Shown: positions 22,360 through 53,411 of the stretch, one piece after another
How positions within the stretch are numbered: position 1 is the first letter of the stretch
Layout of the letters: the number at the start of each line of letters is the position of its first letter
Origin: Siphonodentalium dalli
Taxonomy: Eukaryota > Mollusca > Scaphopoda > Gadilida > Siphonodentaliidae
Direction of reading: 5' to 3'
NCBI GenBank assembly: GCA_032622095.1
Contig: CP136061.1
Span: 37,205,797 to 37,269,796 of the forward strand
DNA length: 64,000 nucleotides
Notes under the pieces: generated by a model
Told to the model about the DNA's origin: nothing
The model's database searches: none
What the model saw: the letters and a program-made list of their open reading frames with translations, nothing else
Position numbers and translations under genes: made by a program

Positions 22360-24651
22360 ACTATTTTTCGCACACTGTAAGACAGTAATTGTGCATCAAC
22401 GTGCATCGATTCTCGGTTGGATATGGTCAAATGGTTCACTCAGTGCTAGCCCACATCGTGTCACTACGCTTACAACATGTGTGCCTCCATCCACAGTGAA
22501 AGGTTTGAAGTCATTCATAGGAGCATATAAAGTCCTATCGCGTGTGATTCCTCAGTGTTCTCATATTCTTGCTCCACTTGATGCGATGATTGCCGGTCGA
22601 GCTTCTCATGAGTGTATAAAGTGGTCAGACGACCAGTGTTCTTCATTCAAAGTAGCACACAAGCATTTGTCTACTTGTCAGTCAATTGTGCTTCCAAGAG
22701 CAGATGACTCTTTATGGATCGTGACAGACGGTTCAGTGAAGCAAAATGGTATTGGTGCAACGTTATATGTGCTTCGCAACAAAAAGTTGATGTTGGCTGG
22801 CTTCTTCGGTGCTAAAGTGCGAAGTCAACAAATTCGATGGCTGCCTTGTGAAATTGAAGCATTAAGTATCGCGGCAGCCATAAAGCATTTCAGTGCATTC
22901 ATCATTCAGTCTTGTGATCCAACATGTTTACTCACCGATAGCAAGCCATGCGTACAGGCTTTTGAGAAGTTGTGTGGAGGTGAATTTTCTGCGAGCCCGC
23001 GTGTGTCGACATTTCTGTCAGTCGTCAGTATATACCAGGTATCAGTTCGCCATTTACCTGGTAGTGTGAATTTGATGTCAGATTTCGCTAGCAGAAATGT
23101 ACCTGAGTGTTTCAATCCTGAGTGCCGCATATGTTTATTCATACAACAAACCGAGATTCTGTTGTTCGTCAAACAAGTGTACATGATGTGCTTTCTGGGG
23201 ATGTGAGATTGCCATTTGTGAATAGGTCTACATGGTTACAGGCTCAGTCAGAATGCTATGACCTTCGACGTACTCATTCTCACTTGACACAGGGAACCCG
23301 ACCTTTCAAGAAAGTGACTAACATTCGAGACATCAAGCGTTATCTGTCACAGTTGCAAAAGATGGTCTTCTTGTCGTGAAGCACGAACAGGCTCTAACTC
23401 ATGACCGAGAACGTATTGTTATTCCTCGCAATCGTATAGACGGTGTGGCTACTGCTCTCCACATCAAGCTAAGCCATCCGTCTGCTCACCAACTGAAAGT
23501 GGTATTACATCGGTACTTCTTTGCTTAGGATATGGACAACATTATCGAAACTGTGTCTGCCCAGTGCATGTGCATCTCTCCGCTCCGTAACAAAAACAGT
23601 ACAGAAACAAAGTTCAGAGGACCCCCCACCTGATATTATTGGTTCTACATTCGCTGCTGCCGTTTTCATAAGAAATAAACAAATCATTTTCGTAATTCGA
23701 GAATGCGTTACTTCATACACAGATGCAGTTATTATTGACAATGAGCGTGGAGAAACTTTGCGCAATGCCTTGTTACAGTTGTGTCTGAAATTAAAACCCT
23801 CTGGAGGTCCATTAACTATTGTGCGTACTGATCCAGCGCCTGGCTTTCAAGCTATATACAAGGACAGTCTCTTAAAAAGCCATCTCGTAGCTATCGAGCT
23901 CGGAAGGACAAAGAACTGTAACCAAAATCCTGTTGCCGAAAAGGCTGTACAAGAAGTAGAAAATGAGCTTGCCCGTCAATATAACCGGTATGACATTCTC
24001 ACTTCTGTTAATCTTGCAGTGGCAATTTCTCAGTTGAATTCACGAGTTCGGACAGGCGGACTTTCGGCAAATGAAATGTGGACCCAACGTGATCAGTATA
24101 CCGGTGAACAGTTACCCATTAAAGACTGTGAATTAATTTCTCAACAGAGTGCTCAAAGATCGTTGAATCATCCTGCTAGTGAGATTTCAAAATCACCATG
24201 TGGGAAACTTCCTGTTGATACAAATATGAAGATTGGTGACCTTATTTGTATATATTCAGATGGAGACAAGCACAAACCCCGTGACCGGTATTTAGTAACA
24301 AGCATAGACGGATCATTGTGTAACTTGAAGAAATTTGTTGGATCTCAACTTCGGAACTCTTCCTATCGCATAAAACGTAGCGAGTGTTACAAAGTTCCCA
24401 CCGACAGCAATATTAACAATAACACTCCTAAACATACTCTGACTTGCATTCCAGATGAAGATGGTGAAAACTTGTGTCATGAATCAGACATTGCTGTATC
24501 AGTATGTCCACCACCAATTCCACAAACAATACCAAGTGAACTTTCTATGTGTGAAGATACCGAGAGTACTGGTAGTCCCATGCGATCAAATCGCGAGAGA
24601 CACCCACCGAAATATTTGCCAGACTGTGTCCTCAGCGAGGAAGATGTTTAA
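22360..24651 (+). pseudogene. Retrotransposon pol fragment (RT end, RNase H, integrase), frame-broken
   Basis: The frame 22,391-23,206 begins in the RT thumb ([24 protein letters not shown]). It continues into RNase H with the carboxylates in [24 protein letters not shown] and LLTDSKPCV. The reading frame then shifts near 23,200. The piece 23,390-23,530 holds an integrase zinc-binding-like HIKLSHPS ... CAQC-type stretch (read from the DNA) interrupted by an in-frame TAG at about 23,527. The long frame 23,521-24,651 joins the integrase core after about 40 unrelated residues (DIIGSTF, then RTDPAPGFQ, then NPVAEKAVQEVE for the D,D,E triad) and ends in a Ser/Pro-rich tail. Several frame breaks plus 5' truncation mean it is inactive. 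Confidence 0.75.
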
Positions 24652-27579: not shown

Positions 27580-30070
27580 TCAATCGGTGTTGTCATTAAT
27601 AATATTTTCTAAGGGTAGCCATCGATTTTTAAACTCTTGATATCGCATGTTGCTTCTGGATGTGTATTTATCGCATTCATATTTGAATTTTAATTCAGCG
27701 AGAAATGCCTTTATTGAAAGTTGGATCGGGTCAAATTTAGTCCTATATATATATTGCTTTAGCATAAGTAGGAAGTAATTTATGATAGAATTCACTTGGC
27801 AATGATTAACGCCAAAAAGCATACTTGGTTTGGTTATGTGTATAGACACTTCATTAATTTTCAACCAAGACTGAATTTCGGTTATAAACCGATTTGTATA
27901 TGGGCAGTCCCAGAAAATGTGAGAAATGTTCTCTTGAGTATTTTCGCATCGCTTACATAGATCGTCAGCTCTTATGCCTGCTATCTTCAGAAATTTGTTC
28001 GTCGATAGGATTCTCGTATTAATTCTAAATTGGAGCCATTGGAGTTTTGTGTCAGGCGTGGTTGTGAATGGATTGCGAAATATATTGTCCCATGATTGGG
28101 AGTCGTCTTTTATTTCCGAATTCCATTTTTTACATGAGTTTGGCACCCGTTTCCCCATTGACAGGGTTCGATGAAAGAGTTGACCGCCTTTCTTGTCCCT
28201 TAATAACGGGATCAAAGTTTTGGGTAAGAACGGAGAGGGTAATCGTAGGAGGGGCTGATTTCGAGAGTTTGAAAGGCTATATATTTGGCGTTTTAGGCTA
28301 GCTATAATAACGAAGTTAGTAGAAATATTGAATGTAGCCTTAAGGGAGTCATGGGTGTGAAATTCTCCATTTGCTTGGAACAGATCGTTTATAAAATATA
28401 TGCCTGCATTTCTCCACGAATTAAAGTTAATTGGGTTTCCTTCCATTCTGATGTTAGAATTATTCCATGTGGTCTCTGACATGATATTACCATTTTTATC
28501 ATATATGCTTATAAATTTGCACCAAGAGCTGAGAACATCCCTCCAAAATGGGTTAGAAATTTTTGAAGTTTGTTTTGACAGGAACTTAGCATCATATGTT
28601 AGGTACAGGGGGTCGTTGATAATGGGGGTGTCTTTTAGGAGAGGTGCCCAATTTGATTGTTTACATATCAGACGTCTCAGCCATGTGATTTTCATTGCGT
28701 CGTTAAAATGTTCCAAGTTGATCATTTTCAGTCCTCCTAGGGAGTAATCGAGACATAACTGCTTCCTTTGTACTCTGTCTCGTTTAGAGTTCCAGATAAA
28801 CTGGAATACAATTGTGTTTAACTTCTTAACGAAAGCATCGTCTGGATTGGGGAGAGACATGAATATGTGGGTTAGCTTTGGAAGAATAAGTGTCTTAATG
28901 ACAGTTATTCTTCCAATTGGGGTTAGTAGCCTGTGGCTCCATATCTTGGTTAGTCGTTCTATTTCGTCCAATTTACAGGAGTAGTTTGTCATCATCTTTC
29001 GAAGATCAGTGTCGAAATTAATGCCCAGAAAGTTGAAAGTGTTTGAGTAGGATAATTTTAAATCATGGCACATGGTTGATTCACAGTTTGCTCTTGATCC
29101 TATCCATGCCGCCTGACATTTCTCCGGGTTAATACGCAGTCCCGAAACCCGAGCATATAGGTCAAGTATTGAGTAGGCCTCACGAATGCTACTTTCATTG
29201 CCATCAAGTATAAACGTTGTGTCGTCCGCGTATTGTGATATTTTATACTCTGAACCACCGAGGACTATTCCTTTAATTTTATCATTTTGTCTTACCAACA
29301 ATGCTAACACCTCTGCGCAGAGGAGAAAAATATATGGGGATATGGGATCACCTTGTCGACAGCCACGCCCTAATTTAAAACTTTGTGATATGTGACCATT
29401 AATCAGGATGGACGAACTAGCGTCTTGATATAGAGTTGTCATCCACTTTTTTATGGAATCACCAAATTTGAAAAAATTGAGGCATTTATGTATGAAGGAC
29501 CATGACACTGAGTCAAATGCTTTTTCGAAGTCTACTAGGAGCAGGACTCCAGGCTTATCGTGTGCTTTCGCTTGATGCATTATGTCATATAAGAGCCTTG
29601 TGTTATCTCCAATGTATCTGTCAGCTAGAAATCCTGTTTGGTCAGAATTAATTATATACGGGAGGACGCGTTTAAGTCTATATGCGATGCACGAGGAGGC
29701 GAGTTTATATGTTGTGTTCAAAAGGGAGATGGGTCGCCAGTTTTTTAATAATTGACGGTTTTTGCCCTTCTTTGGAATGAGTGTTATAATACCCTGTTTT
29801 TGTGTGATCGATAATTCTTCGATTGAAAATGATTCGTTAAGTGAGTCTGTCACAAAGGGCCCCAGATCAGACCAGAAAAATTTGAAGAATTCATATGTGT
29901 AACCAGATGGTCCCGGGCATTTGCAGTTTTTCGATTGTTTTAATGCATGTGTCAATTCTTGTAAAGTTAGCGGACCCTCAATGCTCGATGCTTGAGATGG
30001 CGTTAGTTTGGGGGTTTCAGAATTTTTTAACATTCGATTTAGATCTTGATCGTCAGTTTTTTTATGTGAA
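27580..30070 (-). pseudogene. LINE-B ORF2, reverse transcriptase part
   Basis: In the 817-codon frame, RT landmarks are VDFEKAFDSVSW (residues 167-178), GRGCRQGDPISP (222-233) and the catalytic YADD (268-271). A C-terminal zinc-knuckle C-x2-C-x8-H-x4-C (C693, C696, H705, C710) is typical of L1/Tx1-type LINEs. The catalytic Asp pair is present. It is separated from the endonuclease frame only by an 11-bp tandem duplication at 30,066-30,087; otherwise it reads through to a stop at 27,580. The frame-break is the only disabling change I see, so the copy is fairly young. Confidence 0.9.
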
Positions 30071-31367
30071 TAGAGAGTGAATAGAGAGCTTCCGACATGA
30101 TGCTGTCTTGTGTTGTCAAATTATTACCGTTCTTATCCGTCAAACTGGTCAGGGTTTTAGAAATATAATTACGTTTCTCTAAATTCAGAAAATATTTTGT
30201 GGGTTTTTCTCCTTCCTCGACCCATTTCGCTCGGGATCTAATCATAGCACCACGATTGCTCTCTCTTCGTATTTTTTCTAATTCAGATTCAGTTTTTTCC
30301 ATGTCTTCCATGAGCTTCTGTTTACATTTAAGACTTACTGATGGGTTGTCCAGGTTAATTGATATGATGTTTTTCATTTCAGAGAGGAGTTGTTCTCTTT
30401 TAAGACGTTCTCGTTTACGGTTCGCACAGAACTTTATAGTTTCTCCTCTAATGTCTAACAAGATGGCATCTAAAAGAAGTCTCTTGTTGATATTACATGA
30501 AGCTTTATGTTCACCGCCATCTTCTACACATGAGTAGCCATAGCGAACTTTATTTTCTTCTATGAGTCTTTTAACTAAGTCGCAATATTCCTTGCTATGT
30601 AAAATAGAGTTATTGAACTTCCAAAACCCATGACCAGTTTTCATGTTGCTAACGGTTATTTGACAGGAGATAATTGAGTGATCGGTTTTATAACCCGGTA
30701 TTATCGCGGGTCCCGTGTTTGATAAATTGAGGAGTTCCGAAGAAACTAAGAAATAATCCAGCCGAGCCATTTTTATTGGGGACTTTCTTCTCCATGTGAA
30801 TCGTGTTTCACTGGCATTGTAGATTCTCCAAATGTCGATTAGTTCGAGGCTGTCGATAAGATTTTTGACTTGAATTTTTGCACGTGGGTTATTTTCTTGT
30901 TTATAGTTATAAGTATCAAGATTCTGATTTTGAACAAGATTCCAATCGCCGCACATTATAATCTGGGTATTCCCGATTTTGTCGAGAAGTTTTTTCAAGT
31001 TAGAGTAGAAGTCAGGGTTATCCTCGTTTGGGCCATACAGATTGACTAGACTTAATCTAAGATTTTCGATAGTGATATCCAGTACGATGAAATTTCCATT
31101 TGGATCACGCTGGACCTGATGCAGTTTGAAGTCAAAATTATTTTGGAATAAGATAGCTACTCCTCTCGATTGAGAAGTAAAGGGAGCCATGATAGTTTTG
31201 TAGCCCCATTCAGCTTCTATGCATCTTTCCATTGATTTTGTGAAGTGCGTGTCTTGGAGACAGTATATTGAACCATCTAAAGAACGCAAATGGCGGAACA
31301 CATCACGACGTTTTTCTGATTGATTCAGTCCACGGCAGTTCAGAGATAATATCTTAATTGTAGTCAT
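30071..31367 (-). pseudogene. LINE-B ORF2, APE-type endonuclease part
   Basis: The likely start is the Met at 31,367 (MTTIKILSLNCRG); 14 codons upstream are also open. Landmarks counted from that Met: N10 in LNCRG, QDTH at 38-41 (the usual catalytic Glu is Asp here), GDWN at 140-143, RLDYF at 202-206 and TDHS at 228-231. The linker carries GAMIRSRAKWVEEGEKPTKYFLNLEKR, written here only as a landmark: RSRAKW and EGEKPTKYF are shared with LINE-A. The frame leaves register at the 11-bp duplication ahead of the RT part. Confidence 0.88.
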
Positions 31368-31409
31368 GATATGAATTGGCGGACGACCACGCCAACGGAA
31401 ATAATACAT

Positions 31410-34023
31410 TGTATACAGCTAAAAATTCATAATGAGATGCCTTGTATCCAAAAAGAAACACATTGAAGTCGCCACCATACACACAACATAAGAGACATAC
31501 AGAGAGAACATGGAGAAAACAAATAAACAAAACGAAAATAAATAATACATTCATTCCAGTTGACGATTGTGTCATAAGACAGCATCAACCACCCAACAGT
31601 GGTTTTAATACTCAAAACGCTGCCGCATGGGTCACACTGCCTGCCATTCCGTAAATGTTTTTAAATGAGCTATTGCATAGCTGAATTGGGACATAACCTG
31701 TTACTATTTTTGAGCTTTGAACAATGTTATTGTTGTTGGAAATATTATACGACAATACACCTTTAATTTAAATGCACTTGGTGATTTTTTAATCTTAGAT
31801 TATACTAATCTCTGTCAAATTAAAGTATGGTTCCAATGGGCAATACTATGACGACAAACTTGCGAGGTACCTTAAATATAGTCATCGGATTGTCACTTAA
31901 AGATAGAGCTAATTCGTAGAATGTATACAATGTTGGAATCGGTTTTATTTGTCACTAATTACTCCCGATCGTTCGTGGTAATTGTCCTGTAAATTGTAGA
32001 AATAAAGAGCGTTTCTTTGGTTTGTTTTTCTTAGATGAAGGCTTGGCTCGGTAATTGATTTTCTATAATTTATATGAATTTTTGTTTCGAGTAAAAGAGG
32101 TTATCATAAGGTAACTTCGAATATTTGTCGACCCATATTTTACCTGATAGCAAATATATAATTATAAGTTCAAATAAAGCACGTCCATTTAACGTGTTAA
32201 TAAGTTTAGTCGTGCATGGCGTTTGTTAACATGAATGGCTGACTTTGTGACCCATGCTTTCAGCTAAAAGTGTTTTTAATCATTTTGGAATCTGCATCAG
32301 TAGACAGAAACACGAGTAGATGTCAAGTTTTTTTTTTTTTGCTTTCCGCGTTATTAATCGTTGTAGGTATCAACATATATAATATTGCATGCAGACAGTA
32401 GTGGAAAGCTATTATAATATGCCGTTCAGATCAGCCTCCTTGAAAAGCCGACAAAGATCCTCTTTCGGTGTACATCCGTTAAGATCATTGTCGTCTCCTC
32501 AACGAGACTGATTTCCGATCTATATAATCTGGCAATTCAAATTTAGTTGTAAGCTTACACTGTGAGATATACATAGCTGTATATGATCTGACACTTCTAA
32601 TATATGTGCAATAAATATAATCTGAAAATTCAAAATTCTACGTAAACTCATACTGTGTGTTACACATTATAGCTATAGATATATAGTATCTGACAATTCA
32701 AATTTATTTGTAAACTTACGCGTAACTCTTCATTTGTATTTAGTAAGATTTGCTGAAGGTTTTTACAAAACCGGAAATGGTGGGCCATGGAATGGGACAT
32801 GAGTTGGTTAATGTGTGTGTGTGTGTGTGTGGGTTGGGGGGGGGGGGGGTACCAGCATTTATATAATCAGCCAGAAGCTTATTAATTAATTGAATGTTTT
32901 ACAGCGGGCCCCCCCTTCCAATTAGTTAGCAATGTGGGGTGTGTTACTGTATATACGACCCTGCTATATGTTTTTTCCCCTGTGTGGACCGATCGATATT
33001 TCATATACATTCCGATCTTGATTGGCAGGTGATAATCGTGATGATTTGTTGTGAGTTGTACCGAAATTGTGTCTGTCGCCTGTCCGGATCAAGTAAATGG
33101 GTCAATAATACTCAGCGTAAATTGACCCAGTCGTAAGAGCGATTTCGCATTTCTATTTGGTTTGTTATAAGATGGGAGACACTTAACTTATAATGTTGAC
33201 TTCTTAAATAAGGATGATAGTCTTTGATCTGATGATGTGGATATTGAAGGATATAGTTTTATTCTTTGAATGTGTTTTGATGGCATTGGAATAATGTTAC
33301 AGCAGGAAAATGATTCGAGTGTTACTTTGATAATTGTTGTTATTTTCAGATATGAGTTTGGTAAGTGAATTTTACGAGCTTATTTTTTGGCGGTGTGTTA
33401 GTCTTACCACTGTGGGTGGGGGGGGGGGTAATTTAATTGAGTGTGGGTTGTTATTGTGTCTTGATTATGGGTCGTCTGGAAATTTGCAGAATAGAAACAA
33501 ATAATACAGATATACAACATATATGAAAATGAAACAAGAACAGCGGAGGAAATTGTCTTCCCCGCTCGAGGTTGATCGATTTTGTGTGTTGACAATAGTT
33601 GAAAGCAAAATATTTACTAGTAATGTGAGGTTTTATCGGGAAAATAGTAATGTAGATCATGTAATAGTGTTTTGAACCACACGTTTTGGTAGATTTATAT
33701 CCGTTTTCGTGGAAAAGAACTGAAGTGATATGTAATAAACTTCACCAAATATTTATTTTTTAAAGTCTTGATCATTGCTGGTCCAAATTTCACATACATA
33801 GGTAGCCACACATATAGTTAGTTAATAAGTCATTACCTATAGTAATACACGTGTATTCCAATAATGGCATAATATAAGCAGCTATAATTTGTGCAGTTAG
33901 TATTTATTTTATTTTACCAATTTTTTATATATTTTTTCTGTTTATATAATGTATATTCCACTATTATCAACACATAAAATACATCTTTGGATATATCTCT
34001 TGATCAACTACATAAGATACAGG
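31410..34023. other. Long spacer between LINE-B ORF1 and ORF2
   Basis: 2.6 kb with no recognised coding motif. Contains a (GT)n/G-run tract at about 32,813-32,849 and another G-run at 33,417-33,429. This is much longer than the inter-ORF distance usual for L1-like LINEs, so it may contain a further insertion whose ends I could not identify. Confidence 0.4.
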
Positions 34024-34744
34024 TTAAGACCCAATAAGGGCATTAAGTTCCTCTTCTGTTCGAAATTTTTCAATTTTGCCAGTAGCCAATTTCAAGTATA
34101 ACTTTCCATTTGTTAACCATGAGTTATTTACAGAAGGTGCTTTATATGCCTTCGACAGAAGATGTGAGTTCATAAGGGTTGCATCTTCCACTATAGAAAT
34201 CCCAGATCTCTTCAATTGGCTTCTGGCTTCTATTATATCACACTTTGTGTATCTGTTCGTGAATTTCACAATCATGGCACGGGTTTTAGGTTTCTGCTGC
34301 TGGTTACCAGAATTTTGAGTTTTATTTTCATCAGAATTCGACACCTTCCTGCCAATCCTATGGCACATATGAATTTCCCATGGTTCTATGTCGATATGTA
34401 ATCGAGTTTTGAACATTTCGAGGACCTTTCGCCGACAATCTTTCCCGGATTCGTTGCCTTCCACTTCATTGATGCCGAATATCCTTATCGAATCTTTCCT
34501 GCCTTGCTGTTCTAAGTCGTTCAGCTTATATGTCAACTCCTTCATTTCTGTGGCCATATCGTTTTCTCGTGTCTGAAACTGTTTAAATCGTGTGTCCTTT
34601 TCGATTTCCAGCTGTTTAATTTTTCCCTCCAGAGTAGAGATCTTGTCGGTGAATGCCTGCAGGATTTCTTCTTTGAATTTGTTCACAATCTGACCGAAAT
34701 TGCCAATCTGATCGTGCTGTTCTTTGGAGTAGGACTTAGTTGTA
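34024..34744 (-). pseudogene. LINE-B ORF1 (L1 ORF1p-like), N-terminally truncated
   Basis: The minus-strand frame ends at 34,024. From the junction it reads TTKSYSKEQHDQIG, then a heptad-rich stretch (KISTLEGKIKQLEIEK...LTYKLNDLEQQGR) predicted as coiled coil. An RRM-like RKDSIRIFGINE and the MCHRIGRK ... RAMIVKF motifs follow, typical of the L1 ORF1 RNA-binding protein (Transposase_22 family). The original N-terminus is missing: upstream codons in the same frame (34,745-34,830) belong to the inserted palindromic element. Confidence 0.8.
34739..34744. repeat. Left 6-bp target-site duplication, gttgta
   Basis: gttgta abuts the left end of the palindromic element and is repeated exactly at 43,373-43,378, abutting its right end. 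Confidence 0.85.
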
Positions 34745-35800
34745 AGAAGAATAGGGGCCTCGTTACTCTCACATCTAAAAATAGAATCTTTGGGGTCTAA
34801 AATTGGTTGTGGGTGTCTCGTTACCTTCACATCTAAAAATAGAATCTTTGGGTCTAAAAATTGTTTGAGGGTAAAATTGTTTGAGGGTAAAATTGGTTGT
34901 ACTAAAATATTCCCAAAATATCAAAACCCAAAAAAAAAAATTCAAAACTTCCAAAAATTATTTTTTCCACAAAATTTCAAAATCCCAAAACTTCAAAAAT
35001 TTTAAAACCCCCAAAATTTCAAAAGAAAAAAATTTCAAAACCCCTCAAAATTAGTTCTCTAAAAAAAAAAGTTTAAATAAAAAAATTTATAACGAGTTTA
35101 CGGTTTCTGATAATCTCGATATTAAAAAAATGTCGAATGATAAATTATTTGCGTGTAATATCTTTCGTTATTTTTTTTGTTCAAATATTTGTCATGAAAT
35201 TATTAATCGATGTGTATGGACAGTCGCTGTAATGTTGGACATTGTGACCATCGATATGAATGCATACATTCCAGTGTTTTATCGGACGCAGTTCATATAA
35301 TTGTCATACCTGAAAATAGACACCATTACTTTTACATAAATAATAAACAGCGTTTATTCTTTACACTCTCTCTATCCCATATGACAGGTGTGTATTATCG
35401 TGAATTATTGGAAGTTTTGAGATGTACTATGTTCAATCCCTAACGGTCGAAAATTGTAATGTGAAATTAGAACCCTCCAGAATGAATTGTTCGCTGTACA
35501 CGCAATCACACGCGACATTGATGGTAACAATGTCGTGTGTCACACCTTTGCTTTACCAAATGAATTATATTATTTCCCCACAACATTACGTAATAACCCC
35601 TTATCACTCCATTCACACTTACGACCATTTTGTATGCCGAAAACTACAGGTAGCACCGATGATGTAACATTATATCACTGCTATTGTACCAATGATAGGT
35701 TCAGACATGTTCTATGTTTAGAAAAGAAAAGTTACCTATAATTCTGCTGTGGTTAAGCAGTCCATTATTTAGGGCATACCTGTATGTAGGCCTACCAGTG

Positions 35801-35978
35801 GATGAATAGTCTGCCGGAGAAGTACTGTGTAGACAGGTCTTGTCGGTAAGAGAGTCAGACGAGTAGTGAAGGCTCGGCTATTAAAACATAGTAATGCGAT
35901 AGCGAACATCAAACGAGTCTGCGCACGCATATCTGTCAAAGGATACAAGGGCAGTCATTGGTCAATTTATCCCCGGTG
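35801..35978. repeat. Outer copy of the ATPase-flanking repeat (left arm)
   Basis: gatgaatagtctgccggaga ... ttgtcggtaagagagtcaga ... catagtaatgcgatagcgaa ... catatctgtcaaa ... gtcattggtcaat recurs in direct orientation at 38,683-38,876, on the other side of the ATPase gene. The inner copy has an extra stretch of about 18 bp. Inverted counterparts in the right arm are 42,139-42,316 and 39,241-39,434. Confidence 0.85.
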
Positions 35979-36880
35979 TCAGCTCAGTACCCAATCGGGA
36001 CGAAGCCGAAGGTCAACTCATTTTTTTTTGCTCATTATAGTACGTCACTTGGACATTTTATCAGTTTATCACGTCATCACTAAATGTGGCAATCGGGTAT
36101 CCACCGATGCCTGCAATTTATTATTTATAATAATTGGACTCATTGATCTCACGTAAATAATACTCTTAGTTGTTCCAATAAAATAGTTATCAAATTCGAT
36201 CACCAATAGATTTGACTGTGGAATATAATGACCTTTAACTTATTTATCGATCTATGTTAGAACATGGTCTTAACAAAAAACTTGACCATAACAAAAATTA
36301 CCTTACATTTATGCATGAATCTAATTAGACCATGCGTAAATATTGTCAGCTTATCGTCTGATGAGCAAATCCGATGTTTATCAAAAATAGTACAACTTCC
36401 AGTTGGTAATTACTCTTACGAATGAAGAGCGTTGAACATATACGAAATTACTACACGAATGAACTGAAATTTATATTTCACATCTTACCAACAACAGATA
36501 CAGACATAGTCATAGTGTTATACTATCTTACATGTACACACGCTATGACATCATTCGAAGGGGCAATACACTCAAGGAGTTAAAGTGACACGAAACAAGG
36601 GACGTGATGCAATATTGGTGTTTGAATATTAAAAGGAACACAAGACACTCTAAAGGGACACTCATTATGAATGAATGTTAACAATACAAGCGCAGTGGTT
36701 GAAAGTTAAAATGACAGATCAATATTTAAGGGTCAAATTTTCGGGCACTTAATGCACCTTTTATCATTACGTATCGTTTCTCACTCTACAATTCCCAATA
36801 ATCCACACACTCTCTCCCTCCCCCAGCTTATAGATATATAACGAAAACGAGAATATCATGTTGATGAAGTTTATTGAAAT

Positions 36881-38582
36881 TTAATCGTCCGAATTGTCAT
36901 CACTTTCGCCAGAAGTGTCATATGTTACGTCCATGAATTTTTCTAGCATCGGTTTGTACTTTAATATTGACATTTTCACTGCATCATATTCTCCATAACC
37001 ATTATTCAAATATTTGTCGACTTTATCCATGACTCTGTTGTGCAGAGTCCCATTGCGCAGCTGCAGATACGATACTATTGTCCAAGCATAATCAGTCATA
37101 AAGTGTATCATATCTTTACTTTTAAGGTCCTTGTCAGCTTGTTCTTTTGCTTCTGCGTCTTTCGAGCCATTTTCCTTATACGTGTCCACTTTATCACTCC
37201 ATTCCTCACGTGTTTTATCTCTACTTTTATCACGCAAACTTTTGAAGTATTCATCTTCATTCAATTTAATTTCCTTATTCTGACTATCATCCGGGTCCTC
37301 AGTTAATTTTCGTTTTAACTTATTTTCTTGACACCAGTTTTTTTACGTGTCTCTGAACATCATAATGATCTGCGAACAAAAGCCCGCATTCATTACAAGG
37401 GTACGACATGTCTTCTTGAATGTCTCTGTTTTGATGGTTCTTCTTATTAATTTCATCGAGCTCACCAGGTGGCCGTATGTCGTTAGTATAGTCATTATGT
37501 TGACCCTGGGGCACAATATAATTATATGTTATGCCCTTCTGTTGACCGGGGAGTTCTCTGTCATCGTATTTCATCGCATTCTGTTGACCCTGGGTCTCAG
37601 TGTCTTTTGTATGTTTTATCATCCCATTCTGTTCATCTGGGTGTTCTCTGTCTTTTTGGAGATTATATTTCATGCCATTCCATTCACCCCTATGTTGGTT
37701 CGTGTCCTCTTTTAGTACATTCTGTCGCAGACGTAATGTGTCCGGTGTTGCGGCTTTTAAATCCACCAGTAGGTAACCGTACGGTTCACTCGTCGCTTCT
37801 GAAAACTCTCGAACCATACGCTGAGGACATTCAGGATACATCTGTCTTGATAATGTTGAAATTAATCCCTTGTCGATTGGGTTATTGAACAATACCAAAT
37901 ATTGACAATTTCGTCGTTGCGTTGGATCTTTGTTGTAGTAGAAATTCTGGTTCAAACTTATCAAAGATAAGTTCAAATGGTGACTTCCTTCGGAATGCAA
38001 ATCATTAACTCTCTGGTCTTTTGATGAAGTTTGCATCAAGTCATCGAGTATAACTAGATTTTTATACCGGGGGTTGATAAGCGAATCCAAGTTTGCTGGT
38101 ATTCCTCGTATAAAGTTGACCTGAGGGGTGACGGTATACTTTAATTCGTCATATAGGGGCTGCCAATATTTATAAAACCATATTATTCTGTCAGGTGCGG
38201 GTGATATTTTTGAGGCAGACTTTTGTAGTAAGGTTTTCACGAAGTATGTCTTACCACAAGATGTCGGTCCACTTACACATGCCGTGAATGGATGCTTGAA
38301 AATAAAATCTTCATGGACATTGGCCATTGGATCATCAAAGCAGGATGTTATGTCGCTTTGTTGCTGTGTCCCCTGCTGGTGTTGTAGTATCTGGTGTGGC
38401 TGTAATGGCTGTTGTTGTGGCTGATGATACTGCTGCCTGTTGCTGCTACGGTCTGTTGCTGTTGCTTGGTGCTGCTGCTGTGGGTGTCGGTTAACAAACT
38501 CAGTGTGCTTAGATTGTACATGTCTTATCAAATCATGGTTCCGCACATACCCCCTAGAGCAAATTGAACACTGGTGCTTCAT
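36881..38582 (-). pseudogene. Zinc-finger/packaging-ATPase-like gene, left copy, frameshifted
   Basis: Same gene as the right-arm copy, mirrored. It opens at 38,582, reads 420 codons and then leaves frame at an A-run (T-run on the plus strand, about 37,336-37,342) that is one base longer than in the right arm. The remaining 127 codons are open in the next frame to 36,881. The shift falls inside the second zinc finger, right after its His, so the last Cys ligand and the acidic C-terminal domain are lost. Walker A here reads GPTSCGKT. Two further amino-acid differences from the right copy are seen (position 106 P/Q, position 452 K/E). Confidence 0.85.
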
Positions 38583-38682
38583 TTATACTTGACTAAAATG
38601 TCTCGGTATATGGATTTCCTTTATACAAATGTTCCTTATAACCTAAAAATATGTCATGTCCGTATGTTTGATAACTTTATGT

Positions 38683-38876
38683 AGATGAAATAGTCTGCCG
38701 GAGAAGCACTGTGTATACGGGGAATCAACAGGTCTTGTCGGTAAGAGAGTCAGACGAGAAGTGAAGTATCGACTATTAAAACATAGTAATGCGATAGCGA
38801 ACATCAAACGAGTCTGGACACGCATATCTGTCAAAAGATACAAATAGCCGTCATTGGTCAATCTATCCTCGGTATC
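38683..38876. repeat. Inner copy of the ATPase-flanking repeat (left arm)
   Basis: Direct repeat of 35,801-35,978. It lies between the start of the ATPase gene and the CGG core, so it may hold the promoter-proximal region. A possible role as promoter or former terminal repeat is inference. Confidence 0.8.
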
Positions 38877-38937
38877 ACTTTTCGTTTTACAAAATCAATT
38901 TCACCGAGAGGTTCCCTCGTCATTTGTAGTGACGTAA

Positions 38938-39181
38938 TTGTGGCACCGCCGCCGGCGGCGGCGGCGGCGGCGGCATTGCGGTATTTGCCGGCGGCGGCGG
39001 CATTGCGGTATTTGCCGGCGGCGGCGGCGGCATTGCGGTATTTTACTGCGGCGGCGGGGTCCGCCGGCGGCGGACCCCGGCGGCGGTGGCTGCACCGCCG
39101 CCGCAGTAAAATACCGCAATGCCGCCGCCGCCGGCGGCAAATACCGCAATGCCGCCGCCGCCGCCGGCGGCGGTGCCACAA
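38938..39181. repeat. CGG/CCG-triplet hairpin core of the palindrome
   Basis: Runs of ggc/gcc triplets are punctuated by gcattgcggtatttgccgg units, three in the left half and two (inverted) in the right. The centre (39,058-39,094) breaks symmetry and contains its own small palindrome, ggtccgccggcggcggacc. The open frames here in all directions (Arg/Ala-rich) are consequences of the triplet repeat and not genes. Confidence 0.9.
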
Positions 39182-39240
39182 TTACGTCACTACAAATGAC
39201 GAGGGAACCTCTCGGTGAAATTGATTTTGTAAAACGAAAA

Positions 39241-39434
39241 GTGATACCGAGGATAGATTGACCAATGACGGCTATTTGTATCTTTTGACAGATATGCGTG
39301 TCCAGACTCGTTTGATGTTCGCTATCGCATTACTATGTTTTAATAGTCGATACTTCACTTCTTGTCTGACTCTCTTACCGACAAGACCTGTTGATTCCCC
39401 GTATACACAGTGCTTCTCCGGCAGACTATTTCAT
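39241..39434. repeat. Inner copy of the ATPase-flanking repeat (right arm)
   Basis: Inverted counterpart of 38,683-38,876; direct repeat partner at 42,139-42,316 beyond the ATPase gene. Confidence 0.8.
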
Positions 39435-39493
39435 CTACATAAAGTTATCAAACATACGGACATGACATATTTTTAGGTTATAAGGAACATTTG

Positions 39494-39499
39494 TATAAA
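39494..39499 (+). promoter_or_regulatory. Possible TATA box for the right ATPase gene
   Basis: TATAAA lies 38 nt before the ATG at 39,537 and would give a very short leader. A mirror copy precedes the left gene. Position only; no other support. Confidence 0.35.
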
Positions 39500-39536
39500 G
39501 GAAATCCATATACCGAGACATTTTAGTCAAGTATAA

Positions 39537-41237
39537 ATGAAGCACCAGTGTTCAATTTGCTCTAGGGGGTATGTGCGGAACCATGATTTGATAAGACATG
39601 TACAATCTAAGCACACTGAGTTTGTTAACCGACACCCACAGCAGCAGCACCAAGCAACAGCAACAGACCGTAGCAGCAACAGGCAGCAGTATCATCAGCC
39701 ACAACAACAGCCATTACAGCCACACCAGATACTACAACACCAGCAGGGGACACAGCAACAAAGCGACATAACATCCTGCTTTGATGATCCAATGGCCAAT
39801 GTCCATGAAGATTTTATTTTCAAGCATCCATTCACGGCATGTGTAAGTGGACAGACATCTTGTGGTAAGACATACTTCGTGAAAACCTTACTACAAAAGT
39901 CTGCCTCAAAAATATCACCCGCACCTGACAGAATAATATGGTTTTATAAATATTGGCAGCCCCTATATGACGAATTAAAGTATACCGTCACCCCTCAGGT
40001 CAACTTTATACGAGGAATACCAGCAAACTTGGATTCGCTTATCAACCCCCGGTATAAAAATCTAGTTATACTCGATGACTTGATGCAAACTTCATCAAAA
40101 GACCAGAGAGTTAATGATTTGCATTCCGAAGGAAGTCACCATTTGAACTTATCTTTGATAAGTTTGAACCAGAATTTCTACTACAACAAAGATCCAACGC
40201 AACGACGAAATTGTCAATATTTGGTATTGTTCAATAACCCAATCGACAAGGGATTAATTTCAACATTATCAAGACAGATGTATCCTGAATGTCCTCAGCG
40301 TATGGTTCGAGAGTTTTCAGAAGCGACGAGTGAACCGTACGGTTACCTACTGGTGGATTTAAAAGCCGCAACACCGGACACATTACGTCTGCGACAGAAT
40401 GTACTAAAAGAGGACACGAACCAACATAGGGGTGAATGGAATGGCATGAAATATAATCTCCAAAAAGACAGAGAACACCCAGATGAACAGAATGGGATGA
40501 TAAAACATACAAAAGACACTGAGACCCAGGGTCAACAGAATGCGATGAAATACGATGACAGAGAACTCCCCGGTCAACAGAAGGGCATAACATATAATTA
40601 TATTGTGCCCCAGGGTCAACATAATGACTATACTAACGACATACGGCCACCTGGTGAGCTCGATGAAATTAATAAGAAGAACCATCAAAACAGAGACATT
40701 CAAGAAGACATGTCGTACCCTTGTAATGAATGCGGGCTTTTGTTCGCAGATCATTATGATGTTCAGAGACACGTAAAAAACTGGTGTCAAGAAAATAAGT
40801 TAAAACGAAAATTAACTGAGGACCCGGATGATAGTCAGAATAAGGAAATTAAATTGAATGAAGATGAATACTTCAAAAGTTTGCGTGATGAAAGTAGAGA
40901 TAAAACACGTGAGGAATGGAGTGATAAAGTGGACACGTATAAGGAAAATGGCTCGAAAGACGCAGAAGCAAAAGAACAAGCTGACAAGGACCTTAAAAGT
41001 AAAGATATGATACACTTTATGACTGATTATGCTTGGACAATAGTATCGTATCTGCAGCTGCGCAATGGGACTCTGCACAACAGAGTCATGGATAAAGTCG
41101 ACAAATATTTGAATAATGGTTATGGAGAATATGATGCAGTGAAAATGTCAATATTAAAGTACAAACCGATGCTAGAAAAATTCATGGACGTAACATATGA
41201 CACTTCTGGCGAAAGTGATGACAATTCGGACGATTAA
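39537..41237 (+). CDS. Zinc-finger/packaging-ATPase-like protein (A32/FtsK-HerA-like), right copy, intact
   Basis: 566 codons, single exon, ATG at 39,537. An N-terminal C2H2 finger (C5, C8, H21, H26) is followed by a Gln/His-rich linker (33-78). The P-loop ATPase domain (about 90-290) has Walker A GQTSCGKT (105-112), Walker B LVILDD (176-181) and a following SHHLNLSLISLNQN stretch that resembles the sensor region of viral genome-packaging ATPases. Residues 298-366 hold degenerate repeats of about 15 residues (GQQNAMKYD-like). A second finger, C396-C399-H412-C417 (C2HC), precedes a charged segment and a C-terminal domain (490-550) with an acidic tail. Related predicted proteins are, as I recall, scattered through invertebrate genomes without assigned function. 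By family logic it would pump DNA into capsids or act in element replication, but neither is shown here. Confidence 0.75.
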   Translation: MKHQCSICSRGYVRNHDLIRHVQSKHTEFVNRHPQQQHQATATDRSSNRQQYHQPQQQPLQPHQILQHQQGTQQQSDITSCFDDPMANVHEDFIFKHPFTACVSGQTSCGKTYFVKTLLQKSASKISPAPDRIIWFYKYWQPLYDELKYTVTPQVNFIRGIPANLDSLINPRYKNLVILDDLMQTSSKDQRVNDLHSEGSHHLNLSLISLNQNFYYNKDPTQRRNCQYLVLFNNPIDKGLISTLSRQMYPECPQRMVREFSEATSEPYGYLLVDLKAATPDTLRLRQNVLKEDTNQHRGEWNGMKYNLQKDREHPDEQNGMIKHTKDTETQGQQNAMKYDDRELPGQQKGITYNYIVPQGQHNDYTNDIRPPGELDEINKKNHQNRDIQEDMSYPCNECGLLFADHYDVQRHVKNWCQENKLKRKLTEDPDDSQNKEIKLNEDEYFKSLRDESRDKTREEWSDKVDTYKENGSKDAEAKEQADKDLKSKDMIHFMTDYAWTIVSYLQLRNGTLHNRVMDKVDKYLNNGYGEYDAVKMSILKYKPMLEKFMDVTYDTSGESDDNSDD

Positions 41238-41242
41238 ATTTC

Positions 41243-41248
41243 AATAAA
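41243..41248 (+). promoter_or_regulatory. Polyadenylation signal AATAAA
   Basis: AATAAA begins 5 nt after the ATPase stop codon (41,235-41,237); the mirror copy follows the left gene. Supports a short polyadenylated transcript. Confidence 0.5.
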
Positions 41249-43372
41249 CTTCATCAACATGATATTCTCGTTTTCGTTATATATCTATAAGCTGGGGGAG
41301 GGAGAGAGTGTGTGGATTATTGGGAATTGTAGAGTGAGAAACGATACGTAATGATAAAAGGTGCATTAAGTGCCCGAAAATTTGACCCTTAAATATTGAT
41401 CTGTCATTTTAACTTTCAACCACTGCGCTTGTATTGTTAACATTCATTCATAATGAGTGTCCCTTTAGAGTGTCTTGTGTTCCTTTTAATATTCAAACAC
41501 CAATATTGCATCACGTCCCTTGTTTCGTGTCACTTTAACTCCTTGAGTGTATTGCCCCTTCGAATGATGTCATAGCGTGTGTACATGTAAGATAGTATAA
41601 CACTATGACTATGTCTGTATCTGTTGTTGGTAAGATGTGAAATATAAATTTCAGTTCATTCGTGTAGTAATTTCGTATATGTTCAACGCTCTTCATTCGT
41701 AAGAGTAATTACCAACTGGAAGTTGTACTATTTTTGATAAACATCGGATTTGCTCATCAGACGATAAGCTGACAATATTTACGCATGGTCTAATTAGATT
41801 CATGCATAAATGTAAGGTAATTTTTGTTATGGTCAAGTTTTTTGTTAAGACCATGTTCTAACATAGATCGATAAATAAGTTAAAGGTCATTATATTCCAC
41901 AGTCAAATCTATTGGTGATCGAATTTGATAACTATTTTATTGGAACAACTAAGAGTATTATTTACGTGAGATCAATGAGTCCAATTATTATAAATAATAA
42001 ATTGCAGGCATCGGTGGATACCCGATTGCCACATTTAGTGATGACGTGATAAACTGATAAAATGTCCAAGTGACGTACTATAATGAGCAAAAAAAAATGA
42101 GTTGACCTTCGGCTTCGTCCCGATTGGGTACTGAGCTGACACCGGGGATAAATTGACCAATGACTGCCCTTGTATCCCTTGACAGATATGCGTGCGCAGA
42201 CTCGTTTGATGTTCGCTATCGCATTACTATGTTTTAATAGCCGAGCCTTCACTACTCGTCTGACTCTCTTACCGACAAGACCTGTCTACACAGTACTTCT
42301 CCGGCAGACTATTCATCCACTGGTAGGCCTACATACAGGTATGCCCTAAATAATGGACTGCTTAACCACAGCAGAATTATAGGTAACTTTTCTTTTCTAA
42401 ACATAGAACATGTCTGAACCTATCATTGGTACAATAGCAGTGATATAATGTTACATCATCGGTGCTACCTGTAGTTTTCGGCATACAAAATGGTCGTAAG
42501 TGTGAATGGAGTGATAAGGGGTTATTACGTAATGTTGTGGGGAAATAATATAATTCATTTGGTAAAGCAAAGGTGTGACACACGACATTGTTACCATCAA
42601 TGTCGCGTGTGATTGCGTGTACAGCGAACAATTCATTCTGGAGGGTTCTAATTTCACATTACAATTTTCGACCGTTAGGGATTGAACATAGTACATCTCA
42701 AAACTTCCAATAATTCACGATAATACACACCTGTCATATGGGATAGAGAGAGTGTAAAGAATAAACGCTGTTTATTATTTATGTAAAAGTAATGGTGTCT
42801 ATTTTCAGGTATGACAATTATATGAACTGCGTCCGATAAAACACTGGAATGTATGCATTCATATCGATGGTCACAATGTCCAACATTACAGCGACTGTCC
42901 ATACACATCGATTAATAATTTCATGACAAATATTTGAACAAAAAAAATAACGAAAGATATTACACGCAAATAATTTATCATTCGACATTTTTTTAATATC
43001 GAGATTATCAGAAACCGTAAACTCGTTATAAATTTTTTTATTTAAACTTTTTTTTTTAGAGAACTAATTTTGAGGGGTTTTGAAATTTTTTCTTTTGAAA
43101 TTTTGGGGGTTTTAAAATTTTTGAAGTTTTGGGATTTTGAAATTTTTTGGAAAAAATAATTTTTGGAAGTTTTGAAATTTTTTTTTTGGGTTTTGATATT
43201 TTGGGAATATTTTAGTACAACCAATTTTACCCTCAAACAATTTTACCCTCAAACAATTTTTAGACCCAAAGATTCTATTTTTAGATGTGAAGGTAACGAG
43301 ACACCCACAACCAATTTTAGACCCCAAAGATTCTATTTTTAGATGTGAGAGTAACGAGGCCCCTATTCTTCT

Positions 43373-43378
43373 GTTGTA
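43373..43378. repeat. Right 6-bp target-site duplication, gttgta
   Basis: Exact partner of 34,739-34,744. Beyond it the sequence (tatcttagttg) is LINE-A. Confidence 0.85.
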
Positions 43379-52001: not shown

Positions 52002-53145
52002 GGAGGAACGACTTCTGTCAAGAATACCGACGCTACATTTAGATACGCAATTGAATAACACTCGTGGCTACCAGGCGATATCCGTTACCATCAACCGACT
52101 GGCCACTTTCTCCAAATATGGATCAACAAAAATCAGTTCAATTCACCTTGCAAACATGGGTTTCATATACCAGGGACACAGTGGAAGAAATGAACTAATT
52201 TCATGTTATTCCTGTAAATTTTCTTGCGATGCTCTCAAATTTCAATCCATCGATGATATTAACAAAGCTCATCGTGATAAGATGCCAAATTGCGCTCTTT
52301 TGTCGAAAGCAGTAACCATGACCGAACATGCCAGAACAGATTCGGGACCCACTAAAGATGCTCGGTCAGAATCTGGACCTACGGAACATGCTCGTACAAA
52401 ATCGGGACAACATCACCCATCATCGACCACAGGAATGCAGCTGCTAACGGTTGTGTCGTTGGTGACAAATATCCGACCAGGAGCGACTACCGAGAATGAA
52501 GTAACCAATAGAAAAACAGTCAGTGGTGAGGACTATCCCGATTCGGTGTCAGTTGTGAGCTGCGACGGTGACTTCAACGTGCCTATATCCAAGAAAAACA
52601 AAGGACCAACCAGAGAAGCGAGACCGCCCCACGTGATCCGGAGTGAGACTGCAACCGAAGCAACCAATATTGTGACCGACTGTGCATCTGGGAACAATGA
52701 GCCGCGACCCATATCTAAGTCCGATAGTTCTGTTTTTGAACCGCCCAGATCGACGTCATCACATCTCCCATCGGAACAGAGTACCCAGCAACGGAATAGC
52801 AATTCATCAAACCAAAAGATTCCTGCGGGATGCGGGGTGGTGTATGCCAAACCAGTCCATAGTGATATGCGGACGATCCCCGCAAGAGTCAAATCCTTCC
52901 AAGGATCATGGCCTTATGATCACGTACAAACAGTTCGTGATCTTACGAAGGCCGGGTTCTACTTTGTGAAGTCACCAGATGGCGTTCGTTGTTTCTTCTG
53001 CAACGGGGGGCTTAAAAATTGGAAGAAAGGAGATGTGCCTATTCTCGAGCACGCCCGATGGTTTCCCAAATGTGGATATCTACGTCAGCACACCGGCATG
53101 GACTTCATTCAACTCGTTCAGAAGCTCCATGGAGAGAAACAAGCG
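52002..53145 (+). CDS. Inhibitor-of-apoptosis protein, exon with two BIR domains
   Basis: The acceptor is gttacag (AG 52,000-52,001) and the donor is gcg|gtattt at 53,146. Open throughout; it starts with the last base of a split codon, so at least one exon lies upstream. Residues from EERLLSR onwards lead into BIR1 (NRLATFSKYG ... CYSCKFSCDALKF ... AHRDKMPNC). BIR1 is degenerate: it lacks the usual Trp and GGL between the Cys pair and the His. A Ser/Thr-rich linker follows with three tandem HAR-T/S-x-SGP repeats. BIR2 is canonical (SFQGSWPYD, AGFYFVKSPD, CFFCNGGLKNW, EHARWFPKC; zinc ligands C-x2-C-x16-H-x6-C). BIR domains bind caspases or IAP-binding-motif peptides in the cytosol. With the UBA and RING exons below, this is a BIRC2/3/XIAP-like E3 ligase. 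Confidence 0.92.
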
Positions 53146-53411
53146 GTATTTATACAAGCCTACATATATATCATCATCCTACCTCTTGTGACTACCTGCA
53201 TGGGGCACTCCTAATACATTCAGATCAACGCCAGTTATTCTGTCATCAGACATCGCAGGTAATCTGAGATCCTTTTTGCACATGGTCCAGAATGTATATC
53301 GGGCATGCATGGATGAGACATGACATACTTTCACTTACTATATATTCCACACCCGTGAACATTTAATCAACGGAATAATCGCATTAGAATACACATTTCT
53401 CTCAACAAACG

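Follow-up and report, generated by a model that had tools for sequence, protein, structure and literature searches.

The window analysed here, a stretch of 64,000 nucleotides from Siphonodentalium dalli, contains a palindromic element of 8628 bp (positions 34745-43372) that, judging from its sequence, is probably a non-autonomous satellite of Polintons (Mavericks), kept palindromic by fold-back replication at its central hairpin. A preliminary description of the window had reported an 8.6-kb near-perfect palindrome; self-comparison bore this out, and the element begins and ends exactly where it had been placed. The termini are exact (AGAAGAATAG at the left, CTATTCTTCT at the right) and are flanked on both sides by the 6-bp target duplication GTTGTA (34739-34744 and 43373-43378). 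Three inverted-repeat arm pairs, 34745-35043/43074-43372 (98% identity), 34924-37343/40775-43194 (99% identity) and 37339-38968/39151-40780 (100% identity), span the whole element except for about 180 bp at the centre. Between the left arm (34745-39055, + strand) and its mirror, the right arm (39103-43372, - strand), four of 3354 inner sites and two of 834 end sites differ, in addition to two 1-bp indels. The outer segment of each arm (arm 1-981; 34745-35725, + strand, and 42392-43372, - strand) resembles the TIR of full Polintons, as discussed below. The earlier view of a Polinton-related element with TIRs of practically its entire length also held. Two 58-bp direct repeats lie just inside the left end (34754-34869, + strand; repeat families D4 and D5; mirror 43245-43360). 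The direct repeat R has an outer copy in the left arm at 35833-35948 (+ strand; repeat families D2 and D3; mirror 42170-42285) and an inner copy close upstream of the start of the ATPase gene at 38728-38843 (+ strand; mirror 39276-39391).

Each arm carries a zinc-finger packaging-ATPase gene. One complete gene per arm had been claimed, which is correct for the right arm (39537-41237, + strand, intact, 566 aa), whereas the left-arm gene (36881-38582, - strand, start at 38582) is frameshifted after 420 codons, near 37.34 kb. The right-arm protein consists of a C2H2 finger, an A32-type ATPase core (Pfam match at residues 92-234), a second C2H2 finger and a C-terminal helical domain, and its Pox_A32 match was above the Pfam cut-off. 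The best viral match to the predicted structure was an A32-like packaging ATPase; over the whole protein the top TM-scores were 0.25-0.30 by query length, low values that reflect the disorder of much of the model. A PDB sequence search yielded zinc fingers only, and a PHROGs search two matches only, both above E 0.09. The closest relatives in the protein search were zinc-finger ATPases of bivalves; in viral contigs no relatives were found by protein search, protein alignment or a centre motif. A contig assigned to a bacterial symbiont of a Bathymodiolus mussel bears a broken frame of a zinc-finger ATPase, divergent from what appears by eye to be a PolB fragment; this would be consistent with an ATPase lineage that resides in Polintons. 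Among 15 intact ATPase frames, from eight of nine copies, 21 nonsynonymous and 11 synonymous changes were counted (pN/pS 0.46, p = 0.04), a weak signal of selection, with 32 changes in all. The ORF list of the window element comprises the ATPase frames and otherwise only ORFs of at most 128 aa; PolB and RVE integrase genes are absent from it, and it includes no ORF of suitable size for a capsid or protease gene. The ATPase frames contain no Rep/NS1 domain.

The centre of the element is a GC-rich block with CGG/CCG runs and GCATTGCGGTATTT units (38946-39177). The CGG hairpin claimed at this place is real and more elaborate than supposed: DNA folding gives a T-shaped double hairpin (39039-39113, + strand), in which stem A is followed by hairpin B (GGGGTCCGCCGGCGGCGGACCCC; 39056-39078, + strand), hairpin C (GGCGGCGGTGGCTGCACCGCCGCC; 39079-39102, + strand) and stem A'. 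The module is asymmetric in the window element. The full T shape, with two small hairpins on one stem, is present in 19 of the 24 centres assessed, and hairpins B and C recur over three arm types (14 of 15 palindromes and five of six extra centres), including palindromes that have the same ends but carry a 203-aa zinc-finger frame or, as in L028, no gene that could be named. L014/L015 have a reduced T-hairpin and the two-gene copy L033 has none, so that a copy can be palindromic without it. The centres of L048, where about 2.2 kb of the left arm remains, and of L050 are both damaged; it was noticed post hoc that the centre is damaged or lost at all three loci that lack one mirror gene. The T-hairpin motifs had no match in the full Polintons examined.

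A search of the host genome with the ATPase gave 77 scored matches at 45 loci on all nine contigs, so that the window element is no isolated oddity but belongs to a group of at least 45 loci with the ATPase. Mirror pairs were found at 32 loci, in divergent (-,+) order in all 32 and spaced by 821-1150 bp, and of 11 loci with a single match that were checked, eight carry a whole or partial mirror gene. Both mirror genes are thus present, complete or in part, at 42 of the 45 loci (the window element and L017 included); loci without one mirror gene are rare (3/45). A first search with the end sequence recovered 25 elements, assigned by hand to 15 palindromes, two full Polintons, six elements beside a Polinton integrase and two unsorted elements. 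Polintons have AG...CT ends and 6-bp target duplications. AG...CT termini with a 6-bp duplication were found in all 17 elements with both ends read; the duplication was perfect in 16 of 16 such elements (14 palindromes and two Polintons), where L014/15 and L025/26 require three extra bp at one end, and also in L049/L051.

It is very unlikely that the palindrome is an assembly artefact, with the inverted duplication introduced by hairpin reads or during assembly. Missed adapters can yield palindromic long reads; against this stand flanks that differ while bearing matching, perfect 6-bp duplications, differences private to one arm and an asymmetric centre, together with the recurrence of the same layout at 45 ATPase loci on all nine contigs.

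Two full Polintons of the genome were read, and arm 1-981 of the palindrome is 94-97% identical to both ends of each (L019/L020, of 19.2 kb, and L022/L023). The frames of L022/L023 match rve with a chromodomain and DNA_pol_B_2, with an adenovirus protease match just below the cut-off. Polinton integrases gave at least 107 scored matches in the genome at 99-100% identity, of which 99 of 107 were without stops. Given these near-identical integrases and about 1 kb of common end sequence, the Polintons are plausible helpers, and terminal sequence common to a full element of the same genome is a mark of a non-autonomous derivative. The Polinton gene set is reported to include an FtsK/A32-type packaging ATPase (PMC4028283). 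The palindromes resemble Polintons (polintoviruses) in their ends, their 6-bp duplications, the end sequence of about 980 bp and a packaging ATPase that belongs broadly to the same family; they differ in that frames for PolB, integrase, protease and capsid were not seen in the palindrome, in TIRs that make up nearly the whole element, and in the lineage of the ATPase. The proposal that the element had simply kept the Polinton ATPase did not hold, as the ATPase of the end-sharing Polintons is a different one, of about 230 aa and with 30.6% identity over 206 columns. The element looks chimeric, because its ATPase differs from theirs and is nearest to bivalve zinc-finger ATPases. An origin by simple deletion of a helper Polinton is unlikely given this low identity, the opposite reading direction (inward from the left end in the Polinton, outward in the palindrome) and an arm that, beyond position 981, matches either full Polinton at better than E 1e-4 over just two short stretches (31 and about 54 bp).

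The two arms of a copy are each other's nearest relatives in the copies compared, and both seem to be copied from one during propagation. Arms were sisters in nine of nine ATPase palindromes placed in a tree (0.03-0.15% apart, vs 0.18-0.89% between copies), and ends paired within the copy in 14 of 14 palindromes (0-0.5% apart, with the nearest other end at 1.0-7.3%). A total of 147 sites vary between copies yet agree in both arms of a copy. Of 48 differences within copies, 41 have a state private to one arm; the other seven have states also seen in other copies (six in the AT-rich end region, arm 186-341, and one at arm 881), so that homogenisation is imperfect or some sites are recurrent. The pairing of ends is not by itself peculiar to palindromes, since the two ends of the full Polinton L019/20 are also alike (0.3%); those of the other full Polinton are 10% apart.

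In the preferred reading, of a Polinton satellite renewed by fold-back replication, full Polintons of the same genome would recognise the outer termini through their integrase and, presumably, their protein-primed polymerase. Replication by the helper would displace a strand from one end, which would fold back at the central hairpin and be copied on itself, so that both arms would derive from one and the palindrome would be renewed in every cycle; the helper integrase would then insert the linear double-length product and duplicate 6 bp of the target. This mode of replication is deduced from sequence alone. The anatomy, with its T-shaped centre and like arms within a copy, fits the head-to-head replication dimer, made by copying through a hairpin, that had been suggested in the preliminary description. 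The zinc-finger packaging ATPase, unlike that of the presumed helpers, would most likely favour packaging of the element's own short DNA into helper capsids.

It is rather unlikely, if the strongest of the alternatives, that the palindromes are conventional DNA transposons which move as double-stranded DNA and have extreme inverted repeats of the foldback type, with frequent gene conversion after insertion keeping the arms alike and the hairpin serving as a two-way promoter or arising as a by-product. Galileo is a precedent, with long inverted repeats reported to resemble Foldback (PMC3573991). Conversion, for which chromosomal palindromes serve as a model, would be expected to give a similar pattern of arm pairing, but the insertions look young, with perfect duplications and arms 0.03-0.15% apart, which leaves little time for it, and in 14 of 14 palindromes the two ends carry matching variants, unlike in the full Polinton with the divergent ends given above. 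A GC-rich two-way promoter would be expected where the centre sits, between two divergent genes, but the T-hairpin is also kept in L028 and in the palindromes with the 203-aa frame. Displaced single strands with inverted repeats anneal in protein-primed replication of the adenovirus type. A single snap-back origin, after which the intact palindrome was copied as such, would therefore account for arm pairing without self-priming, and for the like ends of Polinton L019/20, if annealing of displaced strands and mismatch repair level the arms and the hairpin has no special function. This course is improbable, as it gives no account of one two-hairpin module common to arm types that differ in inner sequence and genes.

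With foldback-type elements, which include FB and TU as well as Galileo, the palindromes share inverted repeats that account for the greater part of the element and have repeats within them, and they differ from these in their Polinton ends, the genes within the inverted repeats, the recurring T-hairpin centre and the virus-type gene. The AAV ITR is described as two small palindromes in a larger stem, forming a T, and dimers as arising when elongation passes an unresolved hairpin (PMC1131931); self-complementary AAV is reported to be made by deletion of the terminal resolution sequence (PMC11320455). In 19 of 24 centres, by DNA folding, the palindromes match this parvovirus-type T-shaped hairpin with two small palindromes, placed at the turn-round point as in AAV duplex dimers and self-complementary AAV, a likeness in shape only; no Rep gene was seen in the palindrome, the hairpin is central rather than terminal, the outer ends are of Polinton type and the length is about 8.6 kb. 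Symmetric recombinant adenovirus genomes are head-to-head palindromic defective genomes that arise from protein-primed replication. They are similar in this architecture, but are passing defective genomes, whereas the palindromes have a recurring centre and form a transposing family with many integrated copies. In the literature surveyed (titles and abstract openings of open-access papers, which do not prove absence), no palindromic Polinton derivative and no paper on symmetric recombinant adenoviruses was found. Phage satellites (PICIs) and virophages are small, have helper-compatible ends, keep a packaging gene and lack capsid genes. The palindromes agree with them in all these points and differ in that the host is an animal and the helpers would be its Polintons, and in that redirection of packaging is suggested here by gene content. 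It is conceivable, though doubtful, that the family is an animal counterpart of phage satellites, in which snap-back hairpin replication via an AAV-like central telomere, a packaging motor of its own that takes helper capsids, head-to-head dimer integration, and protein-primed ends with a parvovirus-like hairpin are combined in one replicon.

The palindrome family, young and abundant, shares its ends with an equally young family of presumed helpers and offers a natural test of whether Polintons produce particles and are themselves exploited by satellites. If the satellite model is true, palindromes would be expected outside the chromosomes as snap-back DNA, and also within particles, should these form. 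The occurrence of a T-hairpin together with protein-primed-type ends bears on how hairpin and protein-primed replication could meet; bidnaviruses reportedly combine genes from such different sources (PMC4061559). If fresh copies start with identical arms, the differences between arms would also date each insertion.

The insertion at 34745-43372 was confirmed as the near-perfect palindrome that the preliminary description had claimed; it is 8628 bp long, ends in AGAAGAATAG and its mirror, and is flanked on either side by GTTGTA, a repeated target sequence. Between the arms, 4 of 3354 inner sites and 2 of 834 end sites differ. A complete ATPase gene had been claimed for each arm; this holds for the right arm (39537-41237, plus strand, 566 codons, intact), while the left gene, on the minus strand, is frameshifted after 420 codons. 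A direct repeat of approximately 116-150 bp occurs twice per arm (35833-35948, 38728-38843 and their mirrors), one copy preceding the start of the ATPase gene; some stretches of the repeat weakly match (31-54 bp) full-Polinton sequence downstream of PolB.

A search of the S. dalli assembly (2.23 Gb, 9 contigs) for further copies, as had been proposed, revealed a family of palindromes. The first 1256 bases yielded 75 matches, sorted by hand with the aid of an integrase search into 25 elements: 15 palindromes including that of the window, two full Polintons that were read, six more elements with a suitably placed Polinton integrase, and two unassigned. Besides the window element, 16 elements were fetched, 14 of them palindromes; two of these (L014/15 and L025/26) were called palindromic from mirror-image matches in two pieces, and L027 is readable in part only, since other sequence takes over within its right arm. 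Regarding the ATPase protein, the best 77 of 5339 candidates were scored, none of them with a stop within the match, and correspond to at least 45 loci (both counts being lower bounds for the genome, with decayed copies under-counted because best-scoring matches are favoured), namely 32 mirror pairs, all divergently oriented, and 13 singles. Two singles are known palindromes (the window element and L017), and 8 of the remaining 11 have a mirror gene at the expected place, in part at least and in some cases damaged; both genes are thus present at 42 of 45 loci. The exceptions are L048, whose left arm retains its outer 2.2 kb but has lost the ATPase, L049 (4796 bp, duplication CATAGG), whose left arm has shrunk to roughly 250 bp at the end together with the centre, and L050, with no second arm found within 3.8 kb.

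The arms meet in a GC-rich centre whose core generally folds as a stem (TATTTTACTG...) followed by hairpins B (GGGGTCCG...CGGACCCC) and C (GGCGGTG...CACCGCC) and then the closing stem. Of the 15 palindromes 14 have the full fold, as do 5 of a further 6 centres fetched, counting L009, in which hairpin B is shortened, and L036, which was assessed by eye; the centre of L014/15 is a reduced form and that of L033 lacks hairpins B and C. Damage to the centre was seen at each of the three loci that lack a mirror gene, L049 and L050 having each lost half of B and L048 most of the centre, so that the full form is present in 19 of 24 centres assessed. Folding energy alone is little proof, since GC-rich repeats fold readily; the same asymmetric order is, however, kept across three arm types. 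Two centre motifs searched in the full Polintons gave no match, and the GC-rich middle of L023 is a different repeat. Stem A reads GCATTGCAGTATTTTACTG in L010, L011, L012, L021 and L028 and the facing strand keeps CCGCAATG, giving a recurrent mismatch, with variants in L009, L018 and L024-L027. This mismatch recalls the asymmetric bubbles of parvovirus hairpins. To AAV as described in PMC1131931 and PMC11320455, the centre bears a resemblance in shape only.

The ATPase protein carries one C2H2 finger on either side of a P-loop ATPase core and ends in a helical domain; the core matches Pox_A32 above the curated cut-off (E 6e-6). For its predicted structure (pLDDT 70, pTM 0.45), the top two matches among predicted viral structures were giant-virus packaging ATPases, with adenovirus IVa2 ranking 14; TM-scores by query length for the top matches were just 0.25-0.30 because a large part of the model is disordered, and matches in the PDB were weak, to general P-loop ATPases. 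Homologues totalled 222; most of the named ones among the 120 listed come from bivalves (Pecten, Mizuhopecten, Solemya, Ruditapes, Pinctada, Mytilus, Mya, Mercenaria). In three Mya predicted proteins the homologue runs on into an integrase or chromodomain in the same chain. Contig L029 (JACCHT010000018.1), filed under a Bathymodiolus symbiont genome, contains apparently broken Polinton sequence and is probably host DNA.

Other genes occupy the same palindromic plan. A 203-aa frame replaces the ATPase in both arms of L024 and L027, and in L025/26 it stands in one arm opposite a broken copy. Its product combines a C2H2 finger with a domain resembling the C-terminus of the ATPase protein (hhalign probability 98%; tblastn E 2e-4); its final 62 residues are repeated just downstream in one or two in-line copies in all three elements. 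Among the frames listed for L014/15 and L028 none could be named, the longest being repeat-like.

The two full Polintons, the presumed helpers, match arm positions 1-981 with each of their ends (94-97%). The first, L022/L023 (16.6 kb), has frames matching rve, chromodomain and DNA_pol_B_2, an adenovirus protease match slightly under the Pfam cut-off, and a 230-aa frame with sub-cut-off P-loop ATPase matches only, Pox_A32 included; a 421-aa frame at the position of the major capsid protein had no Pfam match. Two segments of a minus-strand frame (L022:7901-8554) match the PC4 transcriptional-coactivator domain (E 4e-15). Regarding the L022 integrase, the best 107 of 3597 candidates were scored (identity 99-100%); 99 of these are stop-free and 19 share the top score. 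The second, L019/L020 (19.2 kb), has corresponding frames, ordered as in the first; a stretch of about 2.65 kb duplicated in direct orientation (L019:7268-9901 and L020:234-2880, 99.3% identity) would, by its length, explain the difference in size.

Within copies the arms are closely alike: they are sisters in the tree for all nine ATPase palindromes included, with divergence of 0.03-0.15% within versus 0.18-0.89% between copies, and left end pairs with right end in 14 of 14 palindromes (0-0.5%; nearest other end 1.0-7.3%). The ends of L019/L020 also pair (0.3%), whereas those of L022/L023 differ by 10%. Both arms agree within the copy at 147 sites at which copies differ; among the 48 substitutions seen within copies, 41 show a state that no other arm has, and the other seven (six at arm positions 186-341, one at 881) are not arm-unique and therefore speak against perfect homogenisation. 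The paired arms, the recurring turn-round hairpin and the changing arm contents together favour renewal of the palindrome through fold-back copying, which would take place at that hairpin. The main rival, less probable but possible, is arm-to-arm gene conversion following insertion, which would also keep the arms alike. Movement of the palindromes by Polinton enzymes is favoured by their Polinton-form ends, by the matching duplications and by the end sequence shared with the Polintons.

Selection was assessed on 15 intact ATPase frames, which represent 8 copies; of the 18 arms of 9 copies, 3 were excluded as not 566 codons from the start. The pN/pS is 0.46 (p = 0.04), with 21 nonsynonymous against 11 synonymous changes; when these are sorted by hand, those shared by both arms number 10 to 7 (p = 0.03) and those private to one arm 11 to 4 (p = 0.5). 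The counts, though small, fit mild constraint during propagation, with none shown after insertion. That the palindrome keeps a packaging ATPase whose lineage differs from that of the presumed helpers' suggests, short of proof, a satellite favouring its own packaging.

In the window, the palindrome lies on the upstream side of a LINE-like sequence (27580-34744, minus strand; all labels here by eye) with a reverse-transcriptase frame (27580-30033, minus, 817 aa), an endonuclease frame (30039-31409, minus, 456 aa) and, from the palindrome edge down to 34024, a coiled-coil frame (minus) resembling ORF1. An older endonuclease-like fragment is located in the right flank. Two frames at 22391-24651 resemble the RNase H and integrase of an LTR retroelement, and a 387-aa frame at 52051-53214 has apparent BIR (IAP-type) zinc-binding repeats.
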